From Chloroflexota bacterium (GTDB lineage: Bacteria > Chloroflexota > Anaerolineae > Anaerolineales > E44-bin32), in NCBI GenBank assembly GCA_022561215.1, contig JADFRQ010000003.1, positions 1 through 64,000 of the forward strand: a stretch of DNA of 64,000 nucleotides, written 5' to 3'. Positions 51,954-58,269 of the stretch are shown here, piece by piece. Position 1 is the first letter of the stretch; each line of letters begins with the position of its first letter. The position numbers were made by a program, and so were the translations under genes. Below the pieces are notes generated by a model. That model was not told the DNA's origin. It searched no databases and saw only the letters and a list, made by a program, of their open reading frames with translations.

Positions 51954-52703
51954 TTACCCTCCCACGGATGGAACTTCCCGGGACACATAACATCCCACAC
52001 GTGAAGGATGATCAAGCACACTGAACGCTCCGTCTATCCCTCGCAGGGTCCATAGGACGAATAAATCACCAGCCGCCGCCAATATAAAGAAGAGACCGAA
52101 ACTCGCCAACCATCCATTCCCACTAACCAAAGCATACGTATACGGTAGGAAGCCCAGAATAAGGGCAGGGAGAAAGGTGCCTGTGCGATAAACCGAAGCC
52201 GGTGTTGGAATCCTTAAGTGCGCGTAGGGCGATAGTGTGCGGATATAAAATCCGAATTTAATGTCTTTTAGCGCATGATGGCCAGCGAGCAGCCAACCGA
52301 ATGCATGCAGCAGTTCATGCAGGGGTATACCGATGACGATCGCAGGAATAAAGCTGCGCAACTCCGTGAAATTCTGAAACCCTGACCTCAAGTTATCCCC
52401 ATCCCATAACCATGCGTAAGCGATGGAGAGCAAGATCACAAGCGGCAAAGTCATCAGCAGCATGCTTCCCGATGCTCTTGCGATATCTCTCGAAAGATCC
52501 ACCCATTGATCGGCATCGAACGCAAGCTCATTCACTGGATCAATACCAAAAGCAGCAACGTCAAATCTTGGGGCGTCATCAATTGCAATAGTACTTTGGC
52601 AAATTACGCGGGGCAAGTGCACGACAGGTGAGCGAAGATTTCGAGAACTTGGCAATGAGGAGCTTCTAGATGTGAGCTCCACAAAGATCGGCGATTGAGT
52701 CAA
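51954..52703 (-). CDS. DUF3267 putative membrane zinc metalloprotease
   Basis: Membrane protein of up to 249 aa. A zinc-binding HELLH sits inside a helix, IPAIVIGIPLHELLHAFGWL, followed by GHHALKDIKFGFYIRTLSPY and helix segments ending LFFILAAAGDLFVLWTLRG. This combination marks DUF3267, membrane zincins of unknown substrate. The first 80 residues are soluble, basic and Ser-rich (VELTSRSSSLPSSRNLRSPV), so the true start may lie further in. It is 12 bases downstream of the Asp-box surface protein gene, suggesting a shared transcript. Confidence 0.75.
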   Translation of the reverse strand: MTQSPIFVELTSRSSSLPSSRNLRSPVVHLPRVICQSTIAIDDAPRFDVAAFGIDPVNELAFDADQWVDLSRDIARASGSMLLMTLPLVILLSIAYAWLWDGDNLRSGFQNFTELRSFIPAIVIGIPLHELLHAFGWLLAGHHALKDIKFGFYIRTLSPYAHLRIPTPASVYRTGTFLPALILGFLPYTYALVSGNGWLASFGLFFILAAAGDLFVLWTLRGIDGAFSVLDHPSRVGCYVSREVPSVGG

Positions 52704-52715
52704 GTGAAAAATTGG

Positions 52716-54830
52716 TCATGGGATGAGATTGCCTCTTCGATAACCCCCACTCCCCTTGCTGCCAATATAAATGAGATCCTCAACGCTATCAACGCTTAGG
52801 CTCTGCACAAATGTGTTCACCATACCGGAGTCCCTCAGGATCCAGGTGGCCCCTTTATCGTCCGTGACATACAGACCTGCGTCTGTTCCGGCATAAAGCA
52901 CATTCGAATTTGAAGGATGAACGGATACGGCATATACACGCAGGCCACTTAAGCCGGTTTCGTTCCACTGCCCACCAGCATCACTGCTCGAATACAAGCC
53001 GATTTTTGTCGCCGCATAAAGCTGGTTTTCTGTATTGGGATCAAAATCGATTCCATAAACGCTGCTATTATTTAAGCCGCTGTTCCTAATGATCCAACTA
53101 TCCCCGCCATTAAGGCTCATCAACACGCTTCCCTGTTCGCCAGTTAGCCCGGCGAAAAGTACTGCTTGGTTGTAGGGATCGATCGCCAATGCAAATACAC
53201 CCACACCTCCCAACCCTGTGGCGTTCCACGAGGTTCCACCATCAAGACTCTTGAACACACCGTCCGTTCGTGTTCCGATGTAGAGACTCGCAGAATCTAC
53301 GGCGATCGACAGAATCGATTGTGTTGTTCCTCCAAATGAAAATGCGGGGAATCTATTTTGCGGAGAGCGAAATTGCTCAATTACGCCCTCGTCGATGATA
53401 TCCACAGGGATCCTGGTATCGTAGTGCAGAAGAAAACCTTCGCTGAACCCGGAAAAAGACGGCAATCCGGAATTACTGCTGTTCCAGGAATTTCCCGCAT
53501 CAATGGATTTATATATCCCGCTGCTGTTTGTGGCAGCATAGAGAATGAGCGGATTCGCTGTGTCCATAGCTAGGGCGTTAACGCCTTTATCTGCCAAACC
53601 GGAATTGGCTTCCTGCCAGCTTTCTCCTTTATCCGCGGATACATACACACCCCCTCCAAAGATGCTCGCGTAGAGCATTGATGGAGAGCCGGGGGCTACA
53701 AGCATGGACGTAATCGATGTCGCTATCAGGCCTGCGTTTGATCGATCCCACGTCGTCGCCTGATCCGAACTTTTATAAATGCCATCCCCCGCCGTACTGG
53801 CATAAATGGTGGTGCTGGAGTCAGGATCAACCGCGACGGCATAAATAAAATCGGGGCTTAAGCCGGCCGAATTCCAGCTCATACCCCCATTCGTTGTTCG
53901 ATAGACCCCTTTGAAATAAGAAGCGACGTACAGATTTTGGGTTGCATTCGGATCGATTGCCATGGCAAAAACTTTGGCGCCATTCAGTCCACTGCTCATG
54001 CTTTCCCATGTAACCGCGCCATCCGTCGACTTATACACAGCACCACCGTGCCAAGTGCCAACGTAAAGTGTCTTTGGCGTTTGCGGATCAATAATTAATT
54101 CCCTGGTGGCAAGATCGCCCAGACCATTGTTGTAAGCATTCCAATTTGCACCACTGTCGAGGCTCTTATAAACTCCCATAGAATGTGTGGCGGCATAGAG
54201 CACATTGGGATGCGTCGGGTGAACGGCAACTTCGTACACCCAATCTTCACCCAATCCTGCATTGGATTCCATCCAGCTAGCTCCGCCATCCACGGATTTG
54301 TATACACCACCTCCGTAGGGTGGGACGCCTCCCGGGCTGCGTGTTCCGGCATACAGAATGTTTGTTTCCAGTGGGTCAATAGCCAGGGAATAAACGATCG
54401 CATCTTGATTCAAGCCAGAACGCGCTGCGGCCCAGCTCAAGCCGCCATTTAGGCTTTTGTAGACACCATCGGTTTGTGTACCAAGATAGATCGTAGCCGA
54501 CCTAACTGGGTCGATGGCCACCGCGTTAATGAAGAGATTGTCCAACCCATCATTGATAAGCATCCAGGTCGCTCCACCGTCGAAGCTCTTATACATCCCC
54601 GATCCCCACGTTCCTGCGTAAATAACATCTGAATCACCGGGATCAATAGCCAGGCTCACAATGTGCCCGCCTTCAGGCCCCAGAGATCTGAATTCAGACC
54701 CTTGCGCTATCAAAGGCAAAAAAACCGTCATTAACGGAGCACTCTGCGCTTCTCGTGTTGGTGAAACTGAAAGCAACAGCAGAAGCACCGATAGGACCAA
54801 GGTTCGAAGCAGAAATTTCAGCCTGTGCAT
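52716..54830 (-). CDS. Secreted Asp-box (BNR/sortilin-like) beta-propeller protein
   Basis: Exported protein of 704 aa starting at ATG 54830 (MHRLKFLLRTLVLSVLLLLL signal, processed near SPTREAQS). The mature part is a chain of about thirteen units like VIYAGTWGSGMYKSFDGGAT followed by W and INDGL. Each contains the Asp-box S-x-D-x-G-x-T-W and a preceding LYAGT strand, as in VPS10/sortilin-type propellers, photosystem stability factor and sialidase folds. One unit is interrupted by an insertion near SFSGFSEGFLLHYDTR. The sequence bears no catalytic sialidase residues. Likely an extracellular binding or structural surface protein. Intact frame. Confidence 0.9.
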   Translation of the reverse strand: MHRLKFLLRTLVLSVLLLLLSVSPTREAQSAPLMTVFLPLIAQGSEFRSLGPEGGHIVSLAIDPGDSDVIYAGTWGSGMYKSFDGGATWMLINDGLDNLFINAVAIDPVRSATIYLGTQTDGVYKSLNGGLSWAAARSGLNQDAIVYSLAIDPLETNILYAGTRSPGGVPPYGGGVYKSVDGGASWMESNAGLGEDWVYEVAVHPTHPNVLYAATHSMGVYKSLDSGANWNAYNNGLGDLATRELIIDPQTPKTLYVGTWHGGAVYKSTDGAVTWESMSSGLNGAKVFAMAIDPNATQNLYVASYFKGVYRTTNGGMSWNSAGLSPDFIYAVAVDPDSSTTIYASTAGDGIYKSSDQATTWDRSNAGLIATSITSMLVAPGSPSMLYASIFGGGVYVSADKGESWQEANSGLADKGVNALAMDTANPLILYAATNSSGIYKSIDAGNSWNSSNSGLPSFSGFSEGFLLHYDTRIPVDIIDEGVIEQFRSPQNRFPAFSFGGTTQSILSIAVDSASLYIGTRTDGVFKSLDGGTSWNATGLGGVGVFALAIDPYNQAVLFAGLTGEQGSVLMSLNGGDSWIIRNSGLNNSSVYGIDFDPNTENQLYAATKIGLYSSSDAGGQWNETGLSGLRVYAVSVHPSNSNVLYAGTDAGLYVTDDKGATWILRDSGMVNTFVQSLSVDSVEDLIYIGSKGSGGYRRGNLIP

Positions 54831-55022
54831 AAGTCCTCTAGGATCTTGCAAGTGATTCTCATGAAAAACAATTGCCAATTGGATCCGCTTGTTTCCCATA
54901 AGTATGGATCGAAAAACTTTTCTACGCAGTGAGCAAGAAGTGGGCCATTCCTTGGTTGATGTAGTTTCATGCGAGCTGAAGCTGCGAACCGAAGTACGAG
55001 GCAGTGGCGCTTTCGCGGTAAT

Positions 55023-55166
55023 CTAGTAGTTTAATGATGCTCGAATATTTATAAATTCTTGGCGTGCAATCAGTCCGCGAAGGGCAATGTATACACTCTT
55101 TAATTCGAAGAGCGTCGTGGGTCTGCTTCGGTATTCTAGAGCAATATTCAATTTCGTGTGATTCAC
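55023..55166 (-). CDS. 47-aa ORF coupled to the signal-peptidase gene
   Basis: Its GTG at 55166-55164 overlaps the TGA of the S24/S26 peptidase gene as GTGA, as is usual for coupled operon genes. It codes MNHTKLNIALEYRSRPTTLF, then ELKSVYIALRGLIARQ and EFINIRASLNY. The sequence is helical and basic. It resembles the first segment of a larger protein that ends early, so it may be a truncated sixth cluster gene (nucleotidyltransferase-like enzymes occupy this position in some related loci, which I cannot confirm). No independent ribosome site is needed given the coupling. Confidence 0.4.
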   Translation of the reverse strand: MNHTKLNIALEYRSRPTTLFELKSVYIALRGLIARQEFINIRASLNY

Positions 55167-55654
55167 TTGCCTCCAAGCGAATAAGAATTACGAATCACAT
55201 TTTTTAGCCTACTCGCCAAATTACGACCTCGCCGCAAGAAACGAGTCGCAACTACCCAAGCCACCCCTGCGATTTTCCACCAGCCGCGATCAACCTGGAC
55301 GGATTTGCCATTTCGTTGGCGATGAAAGACTTCGCCCAGAACTTGATCCTCCGAGATTTCCTCTTGGATGGCGTTCATCGCATCCCCTCGAACGCTCAAT
55401 CGCCAAATCCCATCGGTAAATGTCTTTCCAATGATGCGGTGGGCGAGCAGTTTGTGATCCTTCGATTGATAAAAAACGATCTGGCCCACTGTCCAATGCC
55501 CTTGTTCCATAGGGCGCACAGTGAGAATATCCCCATCCCTGATAAAGGGACGCATGCTGGAACCGTAGGCCTTAAATTTTACGGCCTCGCCACGCGCAAG
55601 AATTTCGGTTGATATTGTGGCGAACTGCGAATGCCCGACCAGCAGCTCATTCAT
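55163..55654 (-). CDS. S24/S26-family signal-peptidase-like protein
   Basis: A 163-aa peptidase-like protein, ATG 55654. The catalytic Ser region is KFKAYGSSMRPFIRDGDILT, followed by KLLAHRIIGKTFTDGIWRLS and VRGDAMNAIQEEISEDQVLG. Ser in G-S-S-M, His in A-H-R-I and Asp in R-G-D match the Ser-His type S26B (SipW/SEC11-like) arrangement. The C-terminal tail KIAGVAWVVATRFLRRG may be a membrane helix with a basic end. Signal-peptidase-like genes of this type recur in loci with PqqD and HPr-kinase-like proteins. Here it would be a candidate leader peptidase for the 56-aa peptide. Confidence 0.82.
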   Translation of the reverse strand: MNELLVGHSQFATISTEILARGEAVKFKAYGSSMRPFIRDGDILTVRPMEQGHWTVGQIVFYQSKDHKLLAHRIIGKTFTDGIWRLSVRGDAMNAIQEEISEDQVLGEVFHRQRNGKSVQVDRGWWKIAGVAWVVATRFLRRGRNLASRLKNVIRNSYSLGGK

Positions 55655-55722
55655 CGCGCGACAATCTGCTCACGGGAAAAATATATTTGCAGCGAAATTT
55701 GAACGCATTTCTTCGCATTCGA

Positions 55723-56619
55723 CTAATGTCCATTCAACGCAAAGGTTTCCAGGAATTGGACCACGTCGCGCGCTGGTTTGAACTGGAATTGGTAGGCCGG
55801 GACGGACTCAATCAAGCCTTCACATAAATGCAGTATTCGAGGCATCACGTCTTCATCGAACCAAGGCACCGACAATACCGGAATTAATTTTGCCAGTACA
55901 TCCATTGGCTCAAGTCTATGCGCATCATTTTTTTCCCCATGCTGCAGAAAGAAAACCCCCGACAGCGGGGCGGACTCATTTAATGCAATTCCCGCCTCGC
56001 CTGGCCAGGGAGTTCCGAACATCTTGAAATCATTTCCGATCCTTCGCAGGAAAATGCGATCATCGCTTAAAAGCCGAAATCCTCTCTGCGCGCCCAGAAA
56101 TTGGCGAATGAGCGTGCTTTTCCCTGCACCTGATATCCCCGGGAAGATATAACCTTTTCCACGAATCTCAATTCCCGCGGCATGGATTAGCACACCGCCC
56201 CGCGAAGCAAGATGATACATTAGCAAGAGTTGATCTAGAGGGTACTGGATTGGATTAGCTATGAATGCGCCGTTTTCCATAAACACCGAAGGATTGCAAT
56301 ATACGGTCACATCGCTGCATTTGGAATCAAATGTAGCCTGCCAAAATGGCTTGCGCTTGCTCGCCTGGGGATTGAAGAGAAGTTGATATTCATCTTCCTT
56401 CCGATAGAGAGACCAGGACTCGTCGCTGTCAAATAATGGCGATAGATTTCCTAATCCTGGAAACGCTTCTGTTGTCAGTTCAATCCTAATATCTGGCGAG
56501 TCGGTGGCCTCGCCCAGAAATGGACGATAAGGTTCATGTATTGCATTTGGCTTTATGGGAAATTCGGAAGAGGTGCTGATCTGGAGTCCAGCAATCTTGA
56601 GGTGCAATCTATGTTTCAC
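55723..56619 (-). CDS. HPr-kinase-like P-loop protein of a RiPP cluster
   Basis: Protein of about 299 aa. The start is uncertain: I use GTG 56619, because the longer frame (56727) overlaps the precursor gene in another frame. The N-terminal half is a beta-rich substrate domain (HRLHLKIAGLQISTSSEFPI, NPSVFMENGAFIANPIQYPL). The C-terminal half is HprK-like: GVLIHAAGIEIRGKGYIFPG followed by Walker A GISGAGKSTLIRQFLG, then FRLLSDDRIFLRRIGNDFKM and GTPWPGEAGI. Such HPr-kinase-type P-loop proteins accompany PqqD proteins and peptidases in lasso-peptide-related and other RiPP clusters. They may phosphorylate a peptide or use ATP for remodelling. The frame is intact. Confidence 0.82.
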   Translation of the reverse strand: MKHRLHLKIAGLQISTSSEFPIKPNAIHEPYRPFLGEATDSPDIRIELTTEAFPGLGNLSPLFDSDESWSLYRKEDEYQLLFNPQASKRKPFWQATFDSKCSDVTVYCNPSVFMENGAFIANPIQYPLDQLLLMYHLASRGGVLIHAAGIEIRGKGYIFPGISGAGKSTLIRQFLGAQRGFRLLSDDRIFLRRIGNDFKMFGTPWPGEAGIALNESAPLSGVFFLQHGEKNDAHRLEPMDVLAKLIPVLSVPWFDEDVMPRILHLCEGLIESVPAYQFQFKPARDVVQFLETFALNGH

Positions 56620-56647
56620 TTTACCATAGGACAGCAATTCACTCAGG

Positions 56648-56818
56648 TCAGGAGCCGCTGAAGAAAACGCCCATGGCCTCGCAAGGACCCAGTGGACCGG
56701 GCGTACTATCGCTTTTGCAGCCCACACTGAGCACTTCGTTGAGCGCCAACTCGATCGTAAGCAGCTTTGGCTTTATATAGGCTCGTTTGGCTTCATTATC
56801 CTTCTTTTTTGTATCCAT
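56648..56818 (-). CDS. Candidate RiPP precursor peptide (56 aa)
   Basis: A short gene between the radical SAM gene (stop at 56831) and the HPr-kinase-like gene. ATG 56818 is preceded by GAGGT about six bases upstream. The N-terminal leader is basic, MDTKKKDNEAKRAYIKPKLL, followed by TIELALNEVLSVGCK. The pattern Y-x-KP-x-L...I-x-L...E-x-VL-x-x-GC is the leader style of several radical-SAM-modified peptides. The core carries Cys34 and Cys46, with TPGPLGPCEAMG between and after, then VFFSGS. It has no hydrophobic helix and lies exactly where precursors sit. No known family could be named, so this is an inference from position, ribosome site and sequence style. Confidence 0.72.
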   Translation of the reverse strand: MDTKKKDNEAKRAYIKPKLLTIELALNEVLSVGCKSDSTPGPLGPCEAMGVFFSGS

Positions 56819-56830
56819 AAGCACCTCAGA

Positions 56831-57940
56831 TTACTGGATCACCGCGAGTTCTTCAAGCTGCAACAGCTCAATTGCTTGCGCTCGAAGATGACCCGTGGAA
56901 CATACATATTCGGATTTTATGTATTCCTCGCCGTTTTCAAGATCAGAAAACGCAGGACAGGAACCGCACACGCTTCGATTGGAGCATGAATTGCACCCAA
57001 AAGAGGCGGGGGCTTTCACTTCGCGAATAAGTGCAATCTCATTCTCCCAACCGGTACTAAAATCACCGTCCGCAAGATCGAATTGGTAGCGTTCGGTCAT
57101 AATACAGGCTTGCAACTTACCGTAGGGAGTGACGTGAAAATTAGTTAAGCCAGCACCACATTGGTAAAGATTATCATTCATCACCAAAGATTCTGATCTG
57201 TTTTTCAATTCTATCCATTGTTCGCGGCGCGCGGGGCTCGATAAATCGGCGGCGACCGCTTCTTCGGGCGTGACTCGATATTGCAGAGGCGTCTTATCGC
57301 CAGCCAATGTCGGGAAAATTCCAGCATCGAAGCGGAAATTGACGCCATACTTATCGGCAAAACCCTCAATCTCATCCAATTCTGCTTTGTTCTGCTGCAT
57401 GAGCACGGTTTTCAGCGAGAAATTAATATTGTTATCGTACAGCCTTTGAATGCCTGCAATGCAACGGTTATAAGATCCTTTGACATCGGTGATGCGTTCG
57501 TAGGTTTCCTCCCTCGCACCATACAGGCTGACCTCAACATTGCTGGGGGGAAGCTCCTTAAATAGGCGAATGATGCGATTGGTGACCAGAGTTCCGTTGG
57601 TGAACACGGTAACCAATAAGCCCTTCTCTTTGGCATACCTGTAAATCTCGGGAAAATCTTTCCGCAGAATGGGATCTCCACCCGTGATCAAGAGATACAG
57701 GCAGCCGGCGGCGACAACATCGTCGATCAGCGTCTTCACTTCTTGGGTTCCGATTTCCTGGTCCTTATTGCGATGGTATTCTTCCTGAGGGCCCAGGTAG
57801 CAGTGCACGCAGCGCAAATTGCAGCGCTTGGTTAGTTCGATGGTTCCTGAAATGGGCACGCGCTGCTGGCGAACCTTGCGTCCAAGTTCCTGCATGAAAA
57901 GTTGTGCCGACTCCATAATGTCGGTTTCTGCATATTCCAT
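56831..57940 (-). CDS. Radical SAM/SPASM peptide maturase
   Basis: A 369-aa enzyme, ATG 57940 with GAGGT upstream. The core binds 4Fe-4S through Cys40, Cys44 and Cys47 in IELTKRCNLRCVHCYLGPQE. SAM-binding sequence: LYLLITGGDPILRKDFPEIY. The C-terminal SPASM part carries further Cys: LYQCGAGLTNFHVTPYGKLQ, ACIMTE, then SFGCNSCSNRSVCGSCPAFS and EYVCSTGH, enough for two auxiliary clusters. SPASM enzymes such as PqqE, AlbA and thioether synthases cross-link peptides, often with a PqqD partner as recognition element; a PqqD-like gene ends six bases upstream. It is expected to modify the peptide encoded at 56648. Confidence 0.93.
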   Translation of the reverse strand: MEYAETDIMESAQLFMQELGRKVRQQRVPISGTIELTKRCNLRCVHCYLGPQEEYHRNKDQEIGTQEVKTLIDDVVAAGCLYLLITGGDPILRKDFPEIYRYAKEKGLLVTVFTNGTLVTNRIIRLFKELPPSNVEVSLYGAREETYERITDVKGSYNRCIAGIQRLYDNNINFSLKTVLMQQNKAELDEIEGFADKYGVNFRFDAGIFPTLAGDKTPLQYRVTPEEAVAADLSSPARREQWIELKNRSESLVMNDNLYQCGAGLTNFHVTPYGKLQACIMTERYQFDLADGDFSTGWENEIALIREVKAPASFGCNSCSNRSVCGSCPAFSDLENGEEYIKSEYVCSTGHLRAQAIELLQLEELAVIQ

Positions 57941-57945
57941 AAAAA

Positions 57946-58269
57946 TTAGACCTCCACGACCAATTCTGCTGCGATCAACTCTTCTAGAAGTTCAACCAGA
58001 TCGCTATCAGCTTCATTTTTCGAGACCTCGAAATCCTCGAAAATTGCGGCAGCAATTTGATCTATTACCGTATCCCCATCCAATTTTTCCCAAACATAAT
58101 CCGCCACAGGGTTGAGAGCGAAAATACGCCGCATATCTGCCAGGTGACCCTTGATCGGAACCAAGAGGGTTTCACCAACGATCGCACGTGAGACAATATG
58201 CTCATTGCGCTTGTAGCGCTTCGCCCAAAAATCAGGCTGAGAATCCAGGGTTTTTGAATTCTCACCCAT
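57946..58269 (-). CDS. PqqD-family peptide chaperone (RRE)
   Basis: A 107-aa protein, first gene of the operon. Typical RRE fold sequence: HIVSRAIVGETLLVPIKGHL, MRRIFALNPVADYVWEKLDG, then QIAAAIFEDFEVSKNEADSD and LVELLEELIAAELVVEV. The NPVADYVWEKLDG segment matches the PqqD hallmark N-x-T/V-A-x-x-I/V-W-x-x-L-D. Such proteins bind the leader of a precursor and bring it to the radical SAM enzyme. The ribosome site is weak; the start follows the C25 peptidase gene by 89 AT-rich bases, so both its own promoter and readthrough are possible. Confidence 0.9.
   Translation of the reverse strand: MGENSKTLDSQPDFWAKRYKRNEHIVSRAIVGETLLVPIKGHLADMRRIFALNPVADYVWEKLDGDTVIDQIAAAIFEDFEVSKNEADSDLVELLEELIAAELVVEV

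Follow-up and report, generated by a model that had tools for sequence, protein, structure and literature searches.

Linear polyphosphorylated peptides (LPPs) of Bacillota, published in Nat Commun in 2026 (PMC13381572), and paeninodin-type lasso peptides are the described systems closest to the gene cassette analyzed here, which lies on the minus strand of a 64,000-nt stretch of Chloroflexota bacterium DNA (contig JADFRQ010000003.1; hereafter the window, with all coordinates given as positions in it in forward strand numbering). In passages of PMC13381572, the HprK-like kinase LppK is reported to phosphorylate core Ser3, and the SipW-like peptidase LppS to be inactive as S29A, H68A or D93A and to cut the leader only in the presence of LppB, a RiPP recognition element (RRE; RiPP, ribosomally synthesized and post-translationally modified peptide). 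Cleavage is placed there after Thr-1, which by our own count on the printed motif is 15 residues past the Tyr; NTP transferases are assigned to LPP clusters, and most discrete lasso RREs are stated to bind [Y/W]xxPx[L/V/I/A/F/Y]. For paeninodin, phosphorylation of the C-terminal Ser of the precursor by PadeK is reported in passages of PMC9266682. The window cassette encodes a PqqD-type RRE, a radical S-adenosylmethionine (SAM)/SPASM-type enzyme (rSAM), a 56-aa precursor peptide, an HprK-fold kinase and an S26B signal-peptidase-like protein beside a large Peptidase_C25 (gingipain-family) protein. Judged from sequence and from the cited passages, it is a radical-SAM counterpart of both LPPs and paeninodin-type lasso peptides, and the product of the gene set is very probably a small peptide bearing chemical modifications.

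Traits shared with LPPs, as far as the passages of PMC13381572 describe them, are the discrete RRE, the HprK-like kinase, a SipW-type peptidase with Ser/His/Asp and a YxxPx[LIV] leader, together with NTP_transf_5 within 4 kb in 12 of the 54 cassettes tabulated (window plus 53 further; L058 left out). The differences are several. LPPs are linear and made without a cross-linking enzyme, and a term search of the PMC13381572 main text found neither "Radical SAM" nor "rSAM", whereas an rSAM/SPASM gene is present here. The LPP leader YxxPxVLxHQxIxFETxxS is kept in its YxxPx[LIV] part, but HQ/FET occurs in 0 of 52 scored leaders. An NTP transferase and an MsbA-like transporter are core to LPP clusters in those passages, whereas no NTP_transf_5 was found in window 50-64 kb and no transporter was recognized among the neighbors scanned; a link to C25 is absent from the same passages. 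With the paeninodin type, as described in passages of PMC9266682, the cassette shares a PqqD-type B1, a [YW]xxP leader, an HprK-fold kinase and a C-terminal Ser, here a putative acceptor, but an rSAM and a Cys-bearing core stand in place of the macrolactam cyclase and B2. Neither cyclase C nor the cysteine-peptidase B2 was found among the large frames of window 51.9-63.6 kb, the others being C25, BNR-repeat and DUF3267 proteins. In an annotated paeninodin cluster (L176), the kinase carried LLSDDV and the precursor ended in TFES, with a C-terminal Ser; the window likewise has the kinase residues and a C-terminal Ser as putative acceptor. Each part was known already, RiPPs and RREs as well as radical SAM maturases, lasso kinases and the peptidases of LPPs, and it is their combination that is new. 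An earlier sequence-only reading of the window knew of no named RiPP class with this gene set; this was correct for the combination, but the closest kin, LPPs, are already in print, so the combination is new without being wholly without precedent.

A conserved precursor peptide gene and its cassette

The window peptide has a leader with Y14-x-x-P17, a first Cys (C34, the Cys of the "GC") 20 residues past Y14, a second Cys (C46) and the C-terminus S-G-S. Two core cysteines in a Pro/Gly tail had been noted before; there are two Cys in all, but only C46 lies within the tail. Relatives were collected by an rSAM search of 396 genomes of the class, which gave 23 genomes (window's included) at E <= 1e-60. 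From these, 25 non-window loci were fetched, and L058, cut inside the rSAM gene, was excluded from counts. The interval following the rSAM gene held a 47-72-aa frame bearing the same leader in 23 of 24 loci; in L043 the peptide lay on the far side of a C25 gene, and a search of the locus for a kinase gave none. Y14, P17 and C34 were invariant in 24/24 aligned peptides, and the cores, in which no residue other than the first Cys was invariant, were highly variable (mean column identity of the peptide alignment 28%). The motif Y..P.[LIVA], 14-15 residues, C, which was derived from the slot peptides themselves, was present in 23/23 slot peptides of 40-130 aa, whereas the remaining 1930 frames of this length in the same 25 loci contained it only once.

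A profile of the 24 peptides matched 14 of 301 genomes of the phylum. Four of these had supplied profile sequences, and eight of the other ten were examined (excluding G426 and G434), all eight with a cassette-borne peptide copy. With the single window peptide as query against the class genomes, matches L002 (E 2.4e-5) and L003 (E 0.003) were located in cassettes; weaker matches L004-L007 (E 0.028-0.044) were rejected, their surroundings (L059-L062) having no phmmer match to the five window proteins. The 24 peptides matched no family in Pfam or NCBIfam, the best being single members at E = 0.06-0.07.

Codon comparisons, whose dN/dS values come from relatives and not from the window peptide itself, indicated purifying selection. 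Five copies in genome G405, compared from the leader Tyr onward, gave dS 0.35-1.26, dN 0.02-0.13 and dN/dS 0.03-0.22; four f82 genomes gave dS 0.11-0.69, dN 0-0.03 and dN/dS 0-0.07. Two tests had been set beforehand, absence of the 56-aa frame from orthologous loci and a dN/dS near 1, and neither outcome was observed: a peptide with a YxxP-type leader (one with Phe for Tyr) was present in 54/54 cassettes, and dN/dS in the relatives lay far below 1. The 56-aa frame is a gene. G405 holds five extra precursor copies off the cassette (L083, L085, L086, L087 and L088), four with few amino-acid changes against many silent ones and one, L088, with an insertion that excluded it from the codon comparison. 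Judged by a motif, a 912-aa frame next to the copy in L083 may encode a C39-peptidase ABC exporter. Genome G516 has a tandem pair of precursors.

The 54 cassettes, gathered partly by the rSAM gene so that its presence in all of them is not independent, cover Chloroflexota and at least eight other phyla. A scan of genome contigs with the rSAM alignment gave at least 80 loci, of which 21 (L096-L116) among the matches listed bear the cassette; the titles of these records name proteobacterium Delta 3, Deltaproteobacteria, Planctomycetota, Verrucomicrobia, Aminicenantes, Syntrophaceae, Omnitrophota, Aerophobetes, WOR-3, Anaerolineales, Chloroflexota, Nitrospinae, Myxococcales, Kiritimatiellia, Nitrospira and one uncultured bacterium. 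The peptide profile matched 20 of the 21 and one (L119) of the remaining 59 listed loci; the peptide of L097 was identified by eye, ends in G-S and has a frame without a standard start codon. The order PqqD-rSAM-peptide-HprK on one strand was found in 50/54 cassettes. Spacing from the leader Tyr/Phe to the first core Cys was 20 residues in 50 and 21 in two of 52 scored peptides, which exclude L108 (different spacing) and L097; three core Cys were counted in 44, two in seven and five in one. An S26 gene lay within 4 kb in 36/54 cassettes (opposite strand in L099, L104, L107 and L114). In L093 (genome G493), PqqD, rSAM, peptide, HprK, S26 and C25 are all present. A plasmid search for rSAM relatives gave none at 1e-30.

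A short precursor whose leader is conserved and whose core varies, encoded next to an RRE and to a modifying enzyme, gives the locus the general features of a RiPP gene cluster, and the 54 cassettes bear out the earlier view of a RiPP-like operon whose gene set is undescribed. No description of the gene set and precursor family, or of a C25-RiPP link, was found among the matches listed from the open-licence literature searched (preprints not covered).

Table 1. Features of the window locus and the basis of each assignment
Feature	Position	Strand	Basis
PqqD-type RRE, 107 aa, predicted leader binder	57946..58269	-	PF05402 52.1 bits (cut-off 23.4)
Radical SAM/SPASM-type peptide maturase, 369 aa, without fused RRE	56831..57940	-	PF04055 84.5 bits (cut-off 29.5)
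Precursor peptide, 56 aa, ATG 56818 to stop 56648	56648..56818	-	Conserved slot and spacing; purifying selection in relatives
HprK/PEPCK-fold kinase, 298 aa counted from an uncertain start, GTG 56619	55723..56619	-	Kinship, conserved residues, AlphaFold2 model
S26B (SipW/archaeal-type) signal-peptidase-like protein, 163 aa, candidate leader peptidase	55163..55654	-	PF00717 24.1 bits (cut-off 23.3)
Large Peptidase_C25 (gingipain-family) protein, 1742 aa	58359..63587	-	PF01364 283 bits, residues 1395-1737
47-aa open frame overlapping S26 stop (GTGA), unsupported as gene	55023..55166	-	No family

The minus-strand frames and gene order given by the sequence-only reading were borne out for PqqD, rSAM, peptide, HprK-like kinase and S26, with gaps between the five successive genes of 5, 12, ~28 and 68 nt. 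That reading had counted six genes; the sixth, the 47-aa frame, had no Pfam or NCBIfam family and no relative among the fetched loci better than E = 1.2, so it was rejected and five supported genes remain. It had also passed over the C25 gene, which is upstream on the same strand and ends 89 nt from PqqD, so that the operon unit is probably larger, with Peptidase_C25 as its first gene. Downstream of the cassette are a 727-aa BNR/Sortilin-repeat protein (window 52716-54899, minus strand; NCBIfam NF045728, 225 bits, cut-off 175) and, further on, a DUF3267 putative zincin peptidase (51954-52703, minus strand).

Cassette enzymes and comparison with other systems

The PqqD, radical SAM and Peptidase_S24 calls made earlier all exceed their Pfam cut-offs (Table 1). 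Among PDB sequences, PqqD weakly matched 9x90, which is a PqqD chaperone of a lasso system (E 0.017), as well as PqqD 3g2b (E 0.028). The rSAM carries CxxxCxxC and a C-terminal cysteine set: C40, C44, C47, C261, C279, C316, C319, C325 and C328 were kept in 25/25 sequences (window + 24 loci) and C347 in 24/25, and its profile aligned nearly full-length with PqqE 6c8v (28-356) and with 5wgg (30-357). PqqD and rSAM are fused in one frame at L035:3058-4368, a natural fusion that supports joint action of the two. No NCBIfam model for the cassette enzymes reached its cut-off among the matches listed (for rSAM, the best 25 of 91).

For the kinase, the best NCBIfam match was TIGR04355 (43.9 bits, cut-off 200) and Pfam Hpr_kinase_C scored 23.3 bits (cut-off 33.3); both being below cut-off, the earlier label "HPr-kinase-like" stands as kinship to HprK-related proteins and not as family membership. 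H146, G161, G166, K167 (the P-loop lysine), T203, P204 and W205 were invariant among 35 sequences, with D187 in at least 90%. The AlphaFold2 model (pLDDT 92.7) had its best PDB matches to HprK/P and PEP carboxykinase (E 1.7e-6 and weaker; TMq 0.29-0.49 for E <= 0.001).

The S26 protein, a weak match to Peptidase_S24/signal peptidase I, scored 39.1 bits against TIGR02228 (cut-off 51.85). Its S33, H72 and D91, kept in 12/12 sequences (window + 11 loci), are the same kinds of residue as S29, H68 and D93 reported for LppS in passages of PMC13381572. A single-sequence structure prediction of the S26 protein (pLDDT 44) was not used. In three loci, an S26-type peptidase and NTP_transf_5 share one frame (L102:3892-5973, also with GNAT; L105:8135-9745; L110:5177-6874).

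Membership in the SynChlorMet, PQQ and mycofactocin systems was rejected along with that in LPPs and lasso peptides, on scores below cut-offs or on the leader, cyclase/B2, transporter and linearity differences set out above. SynChlorMet (TIGR04248-TIGR04251) also brings together PqqD, HprK-like and radical SAM proteins and gave partial model matches, but all matches to the equivalogs (ScmC, ScmD, ScmE and ScmF) fell far below cut-offs, with 29.1/100, 27.2/125, 87.4/400 and 76.4/400 bits, and the window cassette has one radical SAM gene only. The PQQ and mycofactocin equivalogs scored 74.5/381.35 bits (PqqE) and 122.4/265 bits (MftC). Sactipeptide and ranthipeptide systems, represented by SkfB 6efn and by 5wgg, which we take to be a ranthipeptide maturase, resemble the cassette in an rSAM/SPASM maturase related by profile and in a Cys-bearing core. 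The maturases known from such systems carry a fused RRE, which is lacking here, where a discrete PqqD, a kinase and an S26B protein are added. The terms "HPr" and "signal peptidase" are absent from the searched portions of PMC7470986 (RRE-Finder) and PMC12710340; a term search of the main text of PMC10885120, which reviews RiPP leader proteases, likewise gave no mention of C25, gingipain or signal peptidase.

Relatives outside the main set were also recorded. Sister loci L118, L121, L124, L125, L126, L128 and L130 mostly have the order HprK-PqqD-rSAM with other short YxxP peptides, several with cores beginning CGKC or CGQC (picked by eye from pattern matches), and these peptides are perhaps a second precursor family. 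The Nitrospira loci L115 and L116 both contain NTP_transf_5 as well as three radical SAM frames, and their peptides are longer and end in R-A-S; NTP transferases belong to paeninodin clusters too. Of the three radical SAM frames in Aminicenantes locus L119:906-7104, one is matched by the kinase profile as well, and a WKTPKL...C peptide ending Q-S is encoded nearby. On the Butyrivibrio fibrisolvens plasmid pNP243, L177:4998-7021 encodes an HprK-like kinase, a 57-aa Cys-rich YVKPEL peptide, PqqD and an S24/S26 peptidase, with ABC transporter genes present, whereas the annotation of this stretch lists no radical SAM gene; its gene content is that of an LPP-like relative.

Proposed pathway and alternatives

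In the pathway considered probable as a whole, PqqD would bind the Y-x-x-P-x-L leader of the 56-aa precursor and hand the precursor to the radical SAM/SPASM enzyme, which would oxidatively cross-link the core around the conserved cysteines, most likely through thioethers. Like PadeK acting on the paeninodin precursor, the HprK-fold kinase would phosphorylate the C-terminal residue, a Ser here and a Thr in some relatives, and the S26B peptidase, with the leader presented by PqqD as by LppB to LppS, would remove the leader by a cut just before or within the V-L-x-x-G stretch ahead of C34. By analogy with the LPP site in the cited passages, the window leader may be cut near E28/V29 or at the residue preceding C34; the residue preceding the first Cys is G, A, T or N in 34 and V in 12 of 52 peptides. 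The product would be a short, cross-linked, C-terminally phosphorylated peptide working with the co-encoded secreted C25 peptidase as a processing substrate, modulator or cargo. What the sequences show are the genes with their conserved residues, the conserved precursor in its slot, the occurrence in many phyla and the linkage to C25; the chemistry, the cut site and the part played by C25 are inferred. In favor of the pathway stand the four-gene order and the 20-residue spacing, S26 in 36/54 cassettes, the peptide copies in all eight newly examined genomes, the low dN/dS of relatives, a leader motif of the kind bound by lasso RREs and acted on by the LPP enzymes, the L035 fusion and the paeninodin cluster L176.

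The phosphorylation step draws on an association between kinase and peptide. The kinase motif [SNC]D[DE][RK] was present in 37 of 51 cassettes, and their peptides ended in Ser/Thr in 37/37 ([GA]-[ST] in 31); in the 14 cassettes with other motifs (12 GED, L050 NDEY, L108 SDEC), the end was Thr in four and Ser in none. The 51 rows omit L041 (kinase cut by contig end), L043 and L097 and count the two peptides of L089 once. Fisher's test gave p = 8e-8 for motif classes that were defined after the data had been seen, and this value overstates the case, since the motif changes only twice on the rSAM quick tree; an independent-pairs test had one to two pairs and no power, and four f82-group rows (L091, L092, L093 and L095) are near-duplicates. 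Ser/Thr stood two or three places past the first Cys in 12/12 GED peptides vs 19/37 canonical-motif peptides, a placement that recalls LPP Ser3 by its position.

These limits on the kinase association weigh against the proposed pathway, as do the following. In passages of PMC13381572, the LPP kinase is described as acting on core Ser3 rather than at the C-terminus. Thioether, C-C and other cross-links and plain disulfides are indistinguishable by sequence, and the window peptide has two Cys where 44/52 scored peptides have three. The four-gene order is broken in L043 (no kinase), L097 (by-eye peptide), L109 (contig starting in rSAM) and L116 (no PqqD match). An S26 gene was not found within 4 kb in 18/54 cassettes, some at contig ends. 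The window neighbors scanned include no recognized transporter.

A different emphasis would make the peptide a dedicated regulator of C25 (an inhibitor, activator or tag), with the whole cassette existing for making that peptide; we regard this as possible but doubtful. The C25 protein has SdrD-B repeats and a C-terminal C25 domain, and by our own reading of a signal peptide by eye it is probably secreted. Its assignment to Peptidase family C25 agrees with the His and Cys found in the PF01364 domain, presumably the catalytic residues, which were kept in 39/39 aligned C25 domains, the window's included. The gene is the sole PF01364 match in the window's genome (assembly 90.8% complete), and a C25 gene lay within 2 kb on the same strand in 37/54 cassettes. 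It was directly upstream of PqqD in 12/12 members of the window's clade (12 rSAM rows, SH-aLRT 100, quick tree), which spans several phyla and unites class kin of the window with records whose titles read proteobacterium Delta 3, Planctomycetota, Verrucomicrobia, Aminicenantes, Kiritimatiellia or uncultured bacterium. C25 was present in 23/23 class genomes with this rSAM vs 235/396 overall. Against this reading, C25 genes are common in class genomes lacking this rSAM. Counting against a dedicated regulator and against the C25 partnership of the proposed pathway alike, 17/54 cassettes had no C25 within 2 kb, although in L040, L041 and L089 one flank is missing from the sequence and in several others little of it is present; NTP_transf_5 lay within 4 kb in 8 of those 17 vs 4/37 with C25.

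It is also conceivable, and rated unlikely, that the rSAM does not cross-link at all, the Cys serving as disulfides or metal ligands and the enzyme making another change (epimerisation, C-C bond, decarboxylation). The nearest curated rSAM models are diverse (heme b synthase, NirJ2, mycofactocin) and all listed ones fall below cut-offs, so the reaction is unreadable from kinship. The first Cys, however, is the lone invariant core residue in the 24 aligned peptides and keeps a constant spacing to the leader motif, a pattern in line with a reaction centred on Cys.

A peptide-derived redox cofactor, as in PQQ or mycofactocin, with the small peptide consumed for its last few residues, would fit the pairing of PqqD with a radical SAM/SPASM enzyme and the place of MftC among the best rSAM model matches. 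It is nevertheless judged quite improbable: the cores vary strongly while three leader and first-Cys positions are invariant, the kinase and SipW-type peptidase follow the LPP/lasso logic of the cited passages, and the five scattered extra copies in G405 and the tandem pair in G516 suit a secreted RiPP better than a cofactor. The idea that unrelated genes lie together by chance around a small frame that is no gene can be dismissed, common as small frames are, being refuted by the conserved slot, motif and spacing over 54 cassettes, the 1/1930 background and the dN/dS of relatives.

Meaning for the family

In this compact five-gene set, radical-SAM RiPPs are linked with kinase-bearing lasso peptides and with leader peptidases of the SipW type, and its precursor is recognizable by a YxxP leader, a first Cys 20 residues on and usually a [GA]-[ST] end. 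Tentatively, the cassette may define a RiPP class over at least nine phyla in which a peptide, cross-linked by the rSAM and phosphorylated at its C-terminus, is produced to serve a secreted C25 peptidase encoded alongside it and exerts its effect on that enzyme or by way of it. The C25 link poses the question, not raised in the papers listed, of why a secreted protease and a modified peptide should be encoded together; if this proposal is true, the peptide would be a made-to-order modified partner of an extracellular protease.

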